From assembly GCF_017642925.1 (NCBI RefSeq), contig NZ_JAEPOL010000005.1, positions 124,001 through 188,000 on the forward strand: 64,000 nt of DNA, written 5' to 3'. Below are positions 36,834-60,183 of this stretch, in pieces (position 1 is the first letter of the stretch; each line of letters starts with the position of its first letter). This stretch comes from Maricaulis sp. (GTDB lineage Bacteria; Pseudomonadota; Alphaproteobacteria; Caulobacterales; Maricaulaceae). The notes beneath the pieces are model-generated. The model was not told where the DNA came from. It did no database searches and worked only from the letters and a program-made list of their open reading frames with translations. The position numbers and the translations under genes are program-made.

Positions 36834-37199
36834 CTACTCCGCCAGAAGGCCCAGCTCGCGCTGCTTCTTCTTGCTGAGACCGGACGCGACCAGCTCGTGC
36901 GACTTGGCGATATAGGCCTGAAGATCGCTATCCGGCAGGCCGGGCGTGTCATAGTGCTGGATCCAGCTCATCCCGCGCGAGGCGAGATAGGGCGCCGGGC
37001 GCAAGCCGGGCTGCTCCTGCAGGATTTCGAAGGAAAGCGGTGTGACTTTGAAGGTGATACCGGGATAGTCCCGCAATCCCCAGCCGCCGATGGCGAACAC
37101 CTTGCCGCCGACCTTCCAGACATTCGCATTCCCCCACTGCACCACATGCGTGGTGGCAGGCAATGAGGCGCAATAGGCGTTGAATTCGTCTTCGGTCAT
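36834..37199 (-). CDS. MmcQ/YjbR family protein
   Basis: 121 residues. The YjbR fold: VVQWGNANVWKVGGKVFAI, GITFKVTPLSFEIL and SHELVASGLSKKKQREL. Members resemble a CyaY-like DNA-binding fold, but the biological role is unknown. Last gene of a three-gene set with the HhH and BON-like proteins; 9 bases after the HhH gene. Confidence 0.86.
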   Translation of the reverse strand: MTEDEFNAYCASLPATTHVVQWGNANVWKVGGKVFAIGGWGLRDYPGITFKVTPLSFEILQEQPGLRPAPYLASRGMSWIQHYDTPGLPDSDLQAYIAKSHELVASGLSKKKQRELGLLAE

Positions 37200-55545: not shown

Positions 55546-55578
55546 AAGACCCTGGCTGCCCGCAGCCGGGGTCTTTTT
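55546..55578 (+). terminator. Intrinsic terminator after pckA
   Basis: A 12-bp stem with one mismatch, AAGACCC-TGGCTG paired with CAGCC-GGGGTCTT around a CCCG loop, is followed by TTTTT. It lies 21 bases after the pckA stop and isolates pckA from the threonine operon. Confidence 0.88.
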
Positions 55579-55863
55579 GTGTCCGCATTCCGGCACGACC
55601 GGAATGGCCGCTCCTGTATATGATTTTCATGTTCCGGTACACAAACCGGGATTTTGCGGGACAATCTTTCTCCAAGGCGTCGATACGGAAATTTTGTTCC
55701 GAATTTTGCCAAGCCTGACGCACCAGGTTTCAGCGAAAAAATTGCGTCAGTTCGGTGAAAAAGCACCTCCAGAGCAAAATTTGTTTGACCCGCCGGAGCA
55801 AATGCGCCTTCCTAGTGTGACTTCGCAAGCGCAGCACGCCGCTGCCGCAGGGATGGACCCGTC
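55579..55863 (+). promoter_or_regulatory. Threonine operon promoter region (285 bases, no gene)
   Basis: Together with the pckA terminator this makes 339 bases without a gene. The sequence is AT-rich for this genome near 55680-55800. An 8-bp inverted repeat CTGACGCA/TGCGTCAG (55715-55722 and 55743-55750, 20 bases apart) may be an operator. A TTGACC hexamer at about 55784-55789 is a possible -35, but no convincing -10 was found. Confidence 0.45.
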
Positions 55864-56016
55864 ATGACGCTCGACGCCATGAACATCGCCGGCCTTCAGA
55901 CCCAGACCGTCACCGGTCTGTCCGGTCGCGGCGGCGCCATGCCCGGCGGCCTCGGTACCACCACGACCACCATTATGACCACCTCCTGGACACGGGGGGC
56001 GGCCGGCGTGCGTTAG
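55864..56016 (+). CDS. thrL: Threonine operon leader peptide (attenuator)
   Basis: 50 codons, MTLDAMNIAGLQTQ..., with AGGGA 9 bases before ATG. Twelve of 50 residues are Thr; residues 31-42 read GTTTTTIMTTSW, so five Thr, Ile, Met, two Thr in a row, at 55957-55983. These are the amino acids whose supply an E. coli-type thr attenuator senses. The stop is 27 bases before the terminator stem. Too small to be anything but a leader, and its position before thrA-thrB-thrC supports this. The sequence itself is not homologous to E. coli thrL. Confidence 0.9.
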   Translation: MTLDAMNIAGLQTQTVTGLSGRGGAMPGGLGTTTTTIMTTSWTRGAAGVR

Positions 56017-56043
56017 CGGACCAGAAAACCGCAACACACCGAC

Positions 56044-56076
56044 CCCGCTCCCCGGCCCCGGCGAGCGGGTTTTTTT
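56044..56076 (+). terminator. Attenuator terminator of the threonine operon
   Basis: CCCGCTC (56044-56050) pairs with GAGCGGG (56063-56069) around a GC-rich loop and is followed by seven T. GGGGGGC at 55994-56000, just after the leader Thr codons, can pair with GCTCCCC at 56047-56053 (one G-U pair) and would break the terminator stem, so a competing antiterminator is possible. Confidence 0.88.
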
Positions 56077-56138
56077 GTGCCCGAAATTCACACTTCACCC
56101 ATCAGCCAGACCCGAAAAGACCCAAAGGACCCAGACCC

Positions 56139-57929
56139 ATGCCCCTCGACCTCGATGCCCGAAAACCGCTGAAGCTTTGCGTTCTCAAATTCGGAAGCTC
56201 CGTCCTCCAGAAGCCCGACGACTACGTCCGCGCCGCTCACGAAATCTATCGCCACACGCGTGCCGGCGAGAAGGTTGTCGCGGTCGTGTCGGCCCTGGAA
56301 GGTGAAACCGACGCCCTGTTTGCCGTCGGTGGCGATGTCGGCCAGGGGGCCAGCGACGGCCTGATGGCCCGGCTGGTCCGGTGCGGCGAGCTGAAGTCTG
56401 CAGCGCTGATGGGTCTGGCGCTGGAGCGAACCGGCATTCCCTCTGCCGTGCTCGATCCGCATGAAATGGGTCTGATGGCCGATGGCGAGCCGCTCGACGC
56501 CAATCTCACGGGTCTGGATTCCGAGCGGGTCCTGGCGCACTTCGAAAACGCTGACGTGATCGTTGCGCCGGGCTTCTTCGGGGAAGGTGTTGCAGGGCCG
56601 GTCACACTGGGTCGTGGCGGAACGGACCTGACGGCGGTCGAGTTCGCCCACTGGCTCGATGCCGACCGGGTCCGGCTGATCAAGGATGTCGACGGGGTCT
56701 ATACCGACGACCCGGCCAGGGTCGCCGATGCGGAACGCCTCGACCAGCTCGACTATGACGAAGCCGTACGCGTCAGCCGGGGTCTCGTTCAGGAAAAGGC
56801 GATCTTCCGGGCGCGCGACAACCAGGTCGTGATCGAGGTCGCCGCTCTGGGGCGCCCCTATGCAACGCGCATCGCCGGACGCGTGCAGCAACGCCCGGGG
56901 CCTGTCCCCGCCGCGCGCAAGCTGAAAGTCGCCGTGCTCGGCCATGGCGCCGTCGGCGCCGGCGTGTGCTCGCATCTTCTGGCCCATCCGGGCCGGTTCG
57001 AACTCGCCCCGGTCCTCGTCCGTGACGCGGCAAAGCACGCAGAAGCCTGTGATCGCCCGCTGGAATTCACCGAGGACCCGGCCGTCGCCCTGGCCGGAAC
57101 GCCTGACATTGTCGTGGAAACGCTCGGCGGTACCGATACGGCGCGCGCGCTGAGCCAGAGCGTGCTGCGCGATGGCAGCCATCTTGTCACCGCGAACAAG
57201 GCTGTGGTGGCCCTCGATATCGACCGCCTCAACGACCTCGCCCGGCAGCAAGGACGGCAGTTGCGTTACTCGGCCGCTATCGGCGGCGGCGTTCCGATCC
57301 TGGAACTGGTCGACCTGCTCGGCCGCAATGGCGAAATCCTGGCGGTCGAAGGCGTCATGAACGGCACCTGCAATTTCATCTTCGACCAGCTCAAACAGGG
57401 CACCCGTCTCGCCGACGCGGTCAGCGAAGCCCAGAGGCTGGGCTTTGCGGAAGCCGATCCCAGCACCGATCTCGACGGTCACGATGCGGCCGACAAGCTG
57501 GTCCTGCTGGCCCATCACGCCTTCGGCGTCACGCTGCACCCCAGCCAGATCGAGAAGGAAAGCCTGAACGATCTCGACGGCAACCGGATCCGGGCGGTCA
57601 ACGAGAAAGGCATGGTCTTCAAGCAGATCGCCCGCTGCGAAGCGACCCCGGACGGCCGGGTGGAGGCGCGCGTCGAGATCGTCGCCCTGGAGCCCGATCA
57701 CCCGCTGGCCGGCCTCGTCAACGAGGGCAATGGCTTCCTCGTGAAACTGCCGCAAAAGACGGTTTCCGTACGCGGCAAGGGAGCCGGCCGCTGGCCGACA
57801 GCGGAAGCTGTCTTTGCCGATATCATGGACATCCAGCGTTCCTATCTGACCGGCGAAGCCGAAGCGTCGCCCGTACCGGAGAATCCGCTTAGCCATATCC
57901 GCCGAATGTCGACGGGACAGGTGGCATGA
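56139..57929 (+). CDS. thrA: Fused aspartate kinase-homoserine dehydrogenase, compact and without ACT domain
   Basis: 596 residues, compared with about 820 in E. coli ThrA. The aspartate kinase part (about 1-245) has VLKFGSSVLQ, with an unusual Ser where KFGGTS is normal, GRGGTDLTA and LIKDVDGVYTDDPA. It is joined at once, near residue 262, to the homoserine dehydrogenase part: KVAVLGHGAVGAGV (NAD(P)) and NGTCNFI with HDAADKLVLLAHHA. No ACT domain is visible between or after them, so threonine feedback by the usual site seems absent. AAAGGA precedes the ATG. ATGA overlap with thrB. Confidence 0.93.
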   Translation: MPLDLDARKPLKLCVLKFGSSVLQKPDDYVRAAHEIYRHTRAGEKVVAVVSALEGETDALFAVGGDVGQGASDGLMARLVRCGELKSAALMGLALERTGIPSAVLDPHEMGLMADGEPLDANLTGLDSERVLAHFENADVIVAPGFFGEGVAGPVTLGRGGTDLTAVEFAHWLDADRVRLIKDVDGVYTDDPARVADAERLDQLDYDEAVRVSRGLVQEKAIFRARDNQVVIEVAALGRPYATRIAGRVQQRPGPVPAARKLKVAVLGHGAVGAGVCSHLLAHPGRFELAPVLVRDAAKHAEACDRPLEFTEDPAVALAGTPDIVVETLGGTDTARALSQSVLRDGSHLVTANKAVVALDIDRLNDLARQQGRQLRYSAAIGGGVPILELVDLLGRNGEILAVEGVMNGTCNFIFDQLKQGTRLADAVSEAQRLGFAEADPSTDLDGHDAADKLVLLAHHAFGVTLHPSQIEKESLNDLDGNRIRAVNEKGMVFKQIARCEATPDGRVEARVEIVALEPDHPLAGLVNEGNGFLVKLPQKTVSVRGKGAGRWPTAEAVFADIMDIQRSYLTGEAEASPVPENPLSHIRRMSTGQVA

Positions 57930-58873
57930 CGACAGCAAATCCGGCGGCCCGCGCCAGCGCGCCCGCCAGTGTAGGCAATGTCGGGGTCGGCTTCGATGTG
58001 CTCGGCCTCGCCTTTGACGCCGTGCGTGACGAAGTCTGCGCCGTCCGGGAAGACCAGCCCGGCGTGCGTCTGGGCAGGGTTTCGGGTCTGGTCGACAGCC
58101 TGCCGGCCGAACCGGAGCGCAATTGCGCCCTCGCCGCCGCAGCCGCCGTGCTTGAAGCGGCCAGAGCCGATTTCGGCCTGCGGATCGATGTGCACAAGGG
58201 CGTACCGATGAGTGCCGGCATGGGTGGCTCCGCGGCCTCGGCTGTTGCCGCCGCCGGCGCAGCCAATGCCCTGCTCGACAAGCCTTTTTCAGACATCGAA
58301 CTTCTGCCCCTGGCCATGGAAGGCGAGAAAGTCTCCGCCGATCCGCCGCCCTGGGACAATGTGATGGCGGCACTGCTGGGCGGTCTCGTCCTGGCGGCGC
58401 GCCTCGACCCGCCCCTGATCCGGCGCCTGCCCCTGCCCGAGGGGATTGCCTGCGTGGTCTTCCACCCCCAGCGCAAGATCGAGACCCAGGCCGCGCGCGA
58501 ACTTCTTTCGCCGCAGATCGCCAAGGATATTGCGGTCGAGCATTCACGAAACATGGCCAGCTTCGTGGCCGGTTGCGCCAGCGGCGATCTCGACCTCGTG
58601 GCCAGCGGCCTGCGCGACATCTTCATCGAACCGCAGCGGGCCAGCCTGCTGCCGGAACTGGCGCCGGTCCAGGCCGCCGCCCTTAAGGCCGGCGCGCTGG
58701 GCTGCTCCTTCTCCGGCTCGGGCCCGTCCGTCTTCGCCTGGACCCGGGTGGCAGATCTCGACGCCACGCGGACCGCCATGGCCGCAGCCTTTGCAGCCGC
58801 CGGATGCCCGGCAACCGCCTATGATGCCCCGCTGAATTCCCCCGGGCTCCGGATCGAACCCCAAAAGGGATAG
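57926..58873 (+). CDS. thrB: Homoserine kinase (GHMP family)
   Basis: 315 residues. Phosphorylates homoserine with ATP. ASVGNVGVGFDVLGLAFDAV is the GHMP N-terminal motif, and the phosphate loop is SAGMGGSAASAVAAAG near residue 95. ATG overlaps the thrA stop by 4 bases. The next gene, thrC, starts just after its stop. Confidence 0.94.
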   Translation: MTTANPAARASAPASVGNVGVGFDVLGLAFDAVRDEVCAVREDQPGVRLGRVSGLVDSLPAEPERNCALAAAAAVLEAARADFGLRIDVHKGVPMSAGMGGSAASAVAAAGAANALLDKPFSDIELLPLAMEGEKVSADPPPWDNVMAALLGGLVLAARLDPPLIRRLPLPEGIACVVFHPQRKIETQAARELLSPQIAKDIAVEHSRNMASFVAGCASGDLDLVASGLRDIFIEPQRASLLPELAPVQAAALKAGALGCSFSGSGPSVFAWTRVADLDATRTAMAAAFAAAGCPATAYDAPLNSPGLRIEPQKG

Positions 58874-58881
58874 TGCCGCTC

Positions 58882-60183
58882 ATGCTGTTTCACTCCACCC
58901 GCGGCAACGCCCCCGCTGTCACCGCTGATATCGCGCTCAAGGCCGGAGCGGCGCCCGATGGCGGTCTTTACCTGCCCGGGAGCCTGCCGGGTTTCACCAG
59001 CGGCGACTTCGCCGACACGCCAGGGCTCGGCGATCTGGGCGCACGCCTGCTCGCCCCCTTCTTCGAAGGTTCGCCCCTGGCGGACGCCATGGCGGATATC
59101 TGCCATGACGCGTTCGACTTCCCGGCTCCACGGGTCAGCCCGGATGCAAGCGACGACGCCCCGGCCGTGCTCGAACTGTTTCATGGCCCGACCGGCGCCT
59201 TCAAGGATTTCGGCGCCCGCTTCCTGTTCCGCAGTTTCAGCGCTCTGGGCCAGGACGCGGACGCGCCGATCACGGTTCTGGTCGCGACTTCGGGCGATAC
59301 AGGCGGGGCCGTCGGCTGCGCGGCCGAGGGCGTACCCGGCGTGCGCGCCGTCATCCTGTTCCCCAAGGGCCGGATCTCGGCCTTCCAGGAACACCAGCTG
59401 TGCTGCTGGAAGCCGCCCGTCTCCGCGCTCCGCGTGGCCGGCGATTTCGACGCCTGCCAGGCCCTGGTCAAGGCGGCCTTTGCCGATGCCGATCTGACCG
59501 CCAGGCACTCGCTGACCTCGGCCAACTCGATCAGCATCGGCCGCCTGCTGCCGCAAATGGTCTACTGGTCCCGCGCGGCGCTCGATACCGAAGCAGAGAC
59601 CGGGGCAAAGCCCGGCCTCGTCATCCCCACCGGCAATCTGGGCAATGCCTTTGCCGCCATCCTGGCCCGCGCCTGCGGCCTGCCGATCGGCCCGATCGTG
59701 CTGGCCACCAATGCCAACACAACCCTGTCCGACTGGTTCGCTTCGGGCCGCTATTCAGCGCGCGCATCGATTGCGACCATCGCCAATGCCATGGATGTCG
59801 GCGCGCCGAGCAATTTCGAACGCCTGGACGGGTTCGACGGCGGCGCAATCGCGGGTGTGGAGTGCATCGACGACGACACGATCCGCACCCGCATCCGCAC
59901 GACATTCGAGAACAGCGGCTATATTGCCTGCCCGCATACGGCGACGGGTCTGGAAGCCCACGCACGCCTGCCCGAAGCCGAACGCAAGGCCCGGCCCTGG
60001 ATTGTCGCCGCAACCGCCCACCCCGGAAAATTCGCCGACATCGTCGAGCCGGTGATCGGCCGGTCAGTTGAATTGCCGCCGGCGCTCGCAGGGGTTTTGC
60101 AGCGCGAGGTGCGGGTCAGCGATATCCCGGAGAGCCTGCAAGCGCTTGAGGCGCACCTGACCGGGCAGCTGGCGCCAGACTAA
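58882..60183 (+). CDS. thrC: Threonine synthase
   Basis: 433 residues from ATG 58882 (MLFHSTRGNAP), chosen because threonine synthases commonly begin with this STRG motif; a GTG overlapping the thrB stop at 58873 is possible, but AGGGA is too close to it. PLP lysine in HGPTGAFKDFGARFL near residue 106, and ATSGDTGGAVG follows. Turns phosphohomoserine into threonine. Last gene of the operon; its stop overlaps the lipoprotein gene on the other strand. Confidence 0.95.
   Translation: MLFHSTRGNAPAVTADIALKAGAAPDGGLYLPGSLPGFTSGDFADTPGLGDLGARLLAPFFEGSPLADAMADICHDAFDFPAPRVSPDASDDAPAVLELFHGPTGAFKDFGARFLFRSFSALGQDADAPITVLVATSGDTGGAVGCAAEGVPGVRAVILFPKGRISAFQEHQLCCWKPPVSALRVAGDFDACQALVKAAFADADLTARHSLTSANSISIGRLLPQMVYWSRAALDTEAETGAKPGLVIPTGNLGNAFAAILARACGLPIGPIVLATNANTTLSDWFASGRYSARASIATIANAMDVGAPSNFERLDGFDGGAIAGVECIDDDTIRTRIRTTFENSGYIACPHTATGLEAHARLPEAERKARPWIVAATAHPGKFADIVEPVIGRSVELPPALAGVLQREVRVSDIPESLQALEAHLTGQLAPD

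Follow-up and report, generated by a model that had tools for sequence, protein, structure and literature searches.

The thrA-thrB-thrC operon in the window (the whole stretch of 64,000 nucleotides of Maricaulis sp. DNA that was analysed) is very probably controlled by a ribosome-mediated transcription attenuator encoded directly ahead of thrA. A first-pass annotation, made from the letters of the DNA, had claimed the full layout of E. coli-type thr attenuation at this locus, and that reading is supported by comparative evidence: the finding of leaders in 53 of 79 ThrA upstream regions, the predicted folding of the leader RNA, and the codon phases in which its pairing segment occurs. The mechanism is an ordinary one and is convincingly present; what is new is the lineage and the gene context, for which we found no prior description.

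The leader, its terminator and the operon genes

The constituents by which a classical attenuator is recognised can be discerned at the locus (Table 1). There is a leader ORF in which codons for the operon's product cluster in a run, an intrinsic terminator between the leader and the first structural gene and, for the window by folding, a mutually exclusive antiterminator set by ribosome position. The locus also has the properties of the functional class of thr operon attenuators, as it precedes thrABC and contains Thr and Ile codons. The 50-codon leader with 12 Thr codons and a TTTTTIMTT run, the terminator with its seven T and the gene order thrA-thrB-thrC were described correctly in the first-pass annotation, the identity of the genes being confirmed by Pfam and NCBIfam. 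So was the predominance of ACC among the Thr codons (9 ACC, 2 ACG and 1 ACA). The run is the sole occurrence in six frames of the window of at least seven Thr per nine codons. Two items needed adjustment: the G-rich pairing segment placed at 55994-56000 is present and extends here to 56002, and the ribosome-binding site is, by eye, only a loose purine stretch in the window. Clearer GGAG-like sites precede the leader in other genera.

Table 1. Features of the thr leader region and operon, in window coordinates.
Feature	Position	Strand	Basis or remark
-35-like TTTGAC, probable part of the leader promoter	55784..55789	+	identical in 19/19 genomes of the genus
Conserved TTCGCAAGCGCAGCA motif near the presumed transcription start	55822..55836	+	most, not all, of 19 genus genomes (alignment)
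Leader peptide ORF, 50 codons (MTLDAMNIAGLQTQTVTGLSGRGGAMPGGLGTTTTTIMTTSWTRGAAGVR)	55864..56016	+	stop TAG 56014-56016
Control codons 32-40, TTTTTIMTT	55957..55983	+	Thr run present in 53 loci
Segment 1, CCTCCTG; protector hairpin with 55993-55999 in the free leader	55982..55988	+	MFE fold
Segment 2, GGGGGGCGG, G-rich; antiterminator 5' arm	55994..56002	+	folding; occurs in each codon phase among the genera
Intrinsic terminator hairpin, CCCGCTC...GAGCGGG, -18.0 kcal/mol	56044..56069	+	
Segment 3, CCGCTCCCC; antiterminator partner of segment 2, overlaps terminator 5' arm	56045..56053	+	folding
T7 tract of the terminator	56070..56076	+	sequence
thrA-like aspartate kinase-homoserine dehydrogenase fusion without ACT domains	56139..57929	+	Pfam
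thrB, GHMP-type homoserine kinase	57926..58873	+	Pfam/NCBIfam
thrC, threonine synthase	58873..60183	+	Pfam/NCBIfam

A scan for sigma-70-like promoters upstream of the leader found none. The degenerate form of the TTCGCAAGCGCAGCA motif has four matches in the genome of the window against one for a reversed control, and a motif resembling TTCGCAAGCGCAGCA is visible by eye between the TTGAC box and the leader start in several genera. A generic terminator scan gave one site, the 5-pair form of the leader stem, and because shuffled sequences gave a mean of 1.1, the leader terminator is not significant on its own. By eye, pckA, the upstream gene, also appears to have its own terminator-like hairpin (about 55546-55578).

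The 596-aa ThrA has Pfam matches to AA_kinase (12-214), NAD_binding_3 (268-377) and Homoserine_dh (386-563); Pfam gave no match to an ACT domain, and there is no room for one. Because of this, and because identity to ThrAs of the E. coli kind is 26-38% in aligned blocks, the kinase-dehydrogenase fusion may be of independent origin. ThrB was matched in only two other genomes among 289 alphaproteobacterial genomes (27-28%) and reaches 44-46% identity in six genomes that belong to another class. Four of those six match ThrC at 51-54%, and in Alphaproteobacteria ThrC reaches 43% or less, over part of its length. Judged by identities rather than by a tree, thrB and thrC (57926-60183) look as if they were acquired from another class, presumably the Gammaproteobacteria; the other class is taken as gammaproteobacterial because its ThrAs are 40-85% identical to E. 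coli ThrA. A partial ThrA on a contig labelled uncultured Parasphingopyxis (L051) is 76% identical to that of the window, and the contig is perhaps a mis-binned Maricaulis fragment.

Occurrence among relatives and constraint on the leader

The sample consisted of 79 ThrA upstream regions, from 78 of the 92 genomes of the family (counted by a ThrA match at E 1e-80 or better, with 14 left out) and from G052 of another family. They comprise 39 search loci and 40 stretches of 1.1 kb that end short of the downstream side. Leaders were recognised by a script that required a Thr-rich ORF and, directly after its end, a GC-rich arm with a T run. Recurrence of the leader in relatives had been proposed as a check, and leader and attenuator do recur in 53 of the 79 regions, 52 of them by script and one (G154, g7) by its Thr-run ORF and a 56.4-bit match to a model of the remaining leaders. 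They occur in all 19 genomes of the genus and under eight further genus labels; the loss of the Thr run in close relatives, which would have spoken against the reading according to the first-pass annotation, is not seen, the run being kept in 19/19. The 52 script-passed leaders are distributed over g1 (19), g5 (11), g7 (9), g14 (6), g15 and g8 (2 each) and g10, g4 and g3 (1 each), and the weakest is that of G020 (g3), whose run has three Thr. The sequences are related, so these counts and those from folding are not counts of independent events.

No leader was found in the other 26 upstream regions (L025-L030 and L074-L093), where the ThrAs are 37-40% identical. In three of these regions an ORF reaches four Thr per nine codons but is accompanied by no fitting terminator, and R1, a search model built from 50 distinct family leaders, whose 8 pairs are essentially the terminator, found nothing in the 26 above 12.0 bits. 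The distribution follows thrB: of the 39 search loci, 31 have the gene no more than 1.5 kb downstream, every one of them with a leader, and no thrB was seen in L025-L030, where 0 of 6 have a leader (in L024 and L036 the downstream side is cut off by contig ends). This association, counted over the loci with a visible downstream side, bears on the reading that the ORF is an independent small-protein gene with its own terminator, merely placed before the thr operon. Such a gene would account for the ATG, the loose ribosome-binding stretch and the terminator. It would not be expected to keep company with thrB, nor to have a peptide that diverges strongly from genus to genus with the Thr/Ile run, segment 2 and the terminator all retained, and an NCBIfam search with the leader peptide gave no family match; we consider this reading highly improbable.

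Thr makes up 62% of the 557 run residues, a figure that is partly so by construction, since the run is defined by Thr density. That definition does not bear on Ile, which accounts for 13.1% of run residues against 4.5% elsewhere in the leaders, or on Met, at 7.7% against 5.3%; Ala, the other transition neighbour of Thr codons, accounts for 1.6% of the run and 13% elsewhere. Of the 73 Ile codons in the runs, 53 are ATT, although in five long ORFs of the window the balance is 13 ATT to 102 ATC. Segment 2, located for this purpose by its predicted pairing with the G in CCCGC, falls in codon phase 1 in 13 of 52 leaders, in phase 2 in 19 and in phase 3 in 20. It mostly sits 10-19 nt ahead of the leader stop, and the residues it encodes vary (RGAA, GGGT, GGR, RGGL) while the RNA is constant. 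Its retention in all three codon phases points to a constraint at the level of the RNA, that is, on pairing.

Folding and the predicted switch

We present the following model for the operation of the attenuator. With ample charged tRNA-Thr, and probably tRNA-Ile, the ribosome would pass codons 32-40 and reach the stop at 56014, where it would cover segment 2; the terminator would then form and transcription would stop at the T tract, before thrA. When Thr is short, the ribosome would stall in the run and cover segment 1, leaving segment 2 free to pair with segment 3 as an antiterminator, and RNA polymerase would continue into thrA-thrB-thrC. Sequence and comparison establish the leader with its run, the segments, the terminator and the operon, and that these are conserved; we infer that the leader RNA is made, that ribosomes stall on it and that expression responds to Thr or Ile.

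Folding of the leader, with a ribosome footprint modelled as the P-site plus 16 nt, is consistent with this scheme. The first-pass annotation had proposed that a stalled ribosome frees the pairing segment and a ribosome at the stop covers it, and in the window the modelled terminator probability is 0.00-0.04 with the ribosome on Thr codons and 0.99 with the ribosome at the stop. Across the family, a ribosome at the stop gives a value above 0.8 in 52/52 leaders (lowest 0.87), and in 41 of the 52 the value falls below 0.2 for at least one Thr codon occupied by the ribosome. When a single fixed stall site is modelled, the terminator has a median probability of 0.02, compared to 0.87 with shuffled spacers, and the value is lower than with shuffled spacers in 46/52. 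In the ribosome-free leader the probability ranges from 0 to 0.97 and is below 0.5 in 16/52.

It is conceivable instead that the hairpin acts constitutively as an intrinsic terminator, fixing a low basal level, and is paired with no regulated antiterminator. This would fit the 11 of 52 leaders in which the modelled terminator never drops below 0.2 on any Thr codon (in 6 of which it does not drop below 0.8), and also the energy of the segment 2-3 duplex alone, which lies in the lowest 5% of shuffles in only 10/52 leaders and in most is no better than shuffles; as a lone test, the duplex energy is uninformative because shuffled G-rich segments pair equally well. The covariation, which had been suggested along with folding in relatives as a check, is thin and agrees with a constitutive terminator as well: two-sided changes affect 0/15 antiterminator pairs within the genus, where the core is near-invariant and changes too little, and 1/7 terminator pairs. 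What makes a constitutive terminator very unlikely is the behaviour of the full antiterminator hairpins, which in most leaders are more stable than their shuffles and which replace the terminator in the 41 leaders noted above, together with the position of segment 2, in all reading phases and close before the stop.

The hairpin comparison, from segment 2 to segment 3, was computed on 49 distinct sequences. Median z is -3.6 for g1 (17 sequences), -4.0 for g14 (6), -3.1 for g5 (10) and -3.7 for g7 (9), and for smaller genera -3.1 for g15 (2) and -2.8 for g10 (1); it is weak in g8 (-1.8; 2), g4 (-1.7; 1) and g3 (-1.2; 1), and G159 gives +0.7. Folding of the leader of the window gives only modest z values, -1.9 over its full length and -2.1 over 55950-56078. 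In 50 distinct sequences, 91.1% of the cells of the 7-pair terminator stem are paired, the innermost pair in only 22/50. Structure prediction on a mixed set of 20 other sequences predicted none. A regulated attenuator remains our preferred reading.

Relation to known leaders and the possible role of Met

The attenuator resembles E. coli thrL-thrABC in having a Thr/Ile run rich in ACC and ATT codons, a G-rich segment just before the stop, and a GC-rich terminator with a T tract followed by thrA-thrB-thrC. In the E. coli locus, 7/8 Thr codons of thrL are ACC and 3/4 Ile codons are ATT; PMC1183508 gives eight ACC codons. It differs from thrL in its length (50 codons against 21), in the Met codon within the run, in a ThrA without an ACT domain, and in its alphaproteobacterial host.

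The Rfam model Thr_leader (RF00506) aligns to 55943-56076 with 19.6 bits (E 0.35), below its gathering cut-off of 55 bits; this is the match with the best E-value among Rfam models in a 601-base stretch, and it spans the whole model in the right place. Among 20 family loci, only L023 matches at E 1 or better (31.7 bits). Over the cut-off, Thr_leader was found in 0 of 289 alphaproteobacterial genomes, with weaker matches in 49, and in 14 control genomes it matches four, E. coli included, one of them over the cut-off. The two matches listed for the genome of the window (32.5 and 31.8 bits) lie elsewhere, and because they outscore the real leader the model is no guide here. R1 conversely scores E. 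coli thrL at 34.1 bits and thr leaders of the other class at up to 40.2 bits; the next place in the window scores 17.9 bits, which 10/20 thr loci of that class exceed. A search of 20 whole genomes of the other class at E 0.1 listed the thr leader in only 4 of them, and branched-chain leaders account for several of the top matches. In 240 alphaproteobacterial genomes, R1 matches 3 at E 0.001, including that of the window; a simple check for a leader at the other two matches (36.7 and 34.6 bits) found none. R1 recognises attenuators of this design in general.

The statement that the layout is built from unrelated sequence sits uneasily with the sub-threshold Rfam match in the right place and with the R1 score of thrL, although ilv leaders score with R1 as well. 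Descent from an E. coli-type thr leader is not claimed: R1 also matches branched-chain leaders, including the ilvD leader of the same genome, so that common descent and shared design are not separable. That second attenuator lies upstream of ilvD on contig C1 (L162:1300-1610; R1 match 37022-37125, 42.6 bits) and has an ORF with an LLLLVLVLII run and a terminator, CCCCGCTCCC...GGGAGCGGGG TTTTT, just upstream of ilvD. Branched-chain attenuators such as this one share with the thr leader a core composed of the CCCGCTCCC arm, a GC-rich terminator and a T tract, as well as a leader ORF that ends about 60 nt before the T tract; the ilvD attenuator differs in having a Leu/Val/Ile run where the thr leader has Thr, and precedes another gene. 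Five thr loci of the other class (L133 and L135-L138) have Thr-rich leaders before thrA in which the script found no T-tract terminator, perhaps reflecting a different output mode.

The Met codon deserves separate consideration. In the genus, each of the 19 leaders carries one or more Met codons within the run, a hint that Met, on whose role the first-pass annotation did not comment, is a possible third input of the attenuator. Counting homoserine dehydrogenase matches at E 1e-20, and including G008 (69% complete) among the one-match genomes, at least one Met codon occurs in the run in 18/21 leaders from genomes with one match and 12/31 from genomes with two or more, and at least two in 11/21 and 1/31. 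Since the run is counted only up to its last Thr, a Met that follows directly is missed in G118, G119 and G121; in a fixed stretch from codon -20 to -6 before the stop, the counts are 19/21 and 17/31 for at least one Met and 16/21 and 1/31 for at least two. The pattern is carried by few clades, and g8 departs from it: its genomes have one match, yet its leaders lack a Met codon within the run. Met sensing has reportedly been predicted for thrA of Pasteurellales by Vitreschak et al. 2004 (FEMS Microbiol Lett 234:357). It is a tentative and rather doubtful proposal that a three-input attenuator (Thr, Ile, Met) took over the control of an ACT-less, feedback-escaping ThrA, with Met codons commoner where ThrA is the only homoserine dehydrogenase.

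In the literature searched, no description of a thr attenuator in Alphaproteobacteria was found except for one hint, SEP5 of Sinorhizobium meliloti; Vitreschak et al. 2004 may already list one. SEP5 is, like the leader described here, an alphaproteobacterial sORF with a Thr cluster; according to the parts of PMC10117765 covered, it lies in a 5'-UTR, its translation was detected, and its authors termed it a possible leader peptide. It has six Thr and three Lys codons, precedes another gene (aspartate dehydrogenase, by the paper's account) and is conserved only in Sinorhizobium; those parts of PMC10117765 give no attenuator structure for it. Attenuators of the Rfam type may stem from gammaproteobacteria, with very few transfers, as stated in PMC3766115.

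The thr leaders described here add to the known range of thr attenuation an alphaproteobacterial family where the public model finds no case of it. They allow a codon run and an RNA pairing segment to be seen evolving under separate constraints, and the roughly 50 leaders form a natural series in which codon choice (ATT for Ile, Met added) can be compared with the wiring of the pathway. Because ThrA lacks an ACT domain, the attenuator may be the main Thr-dependent control of the branch, which suggests how an ACT-less ThrA might still be held in check by threonine.
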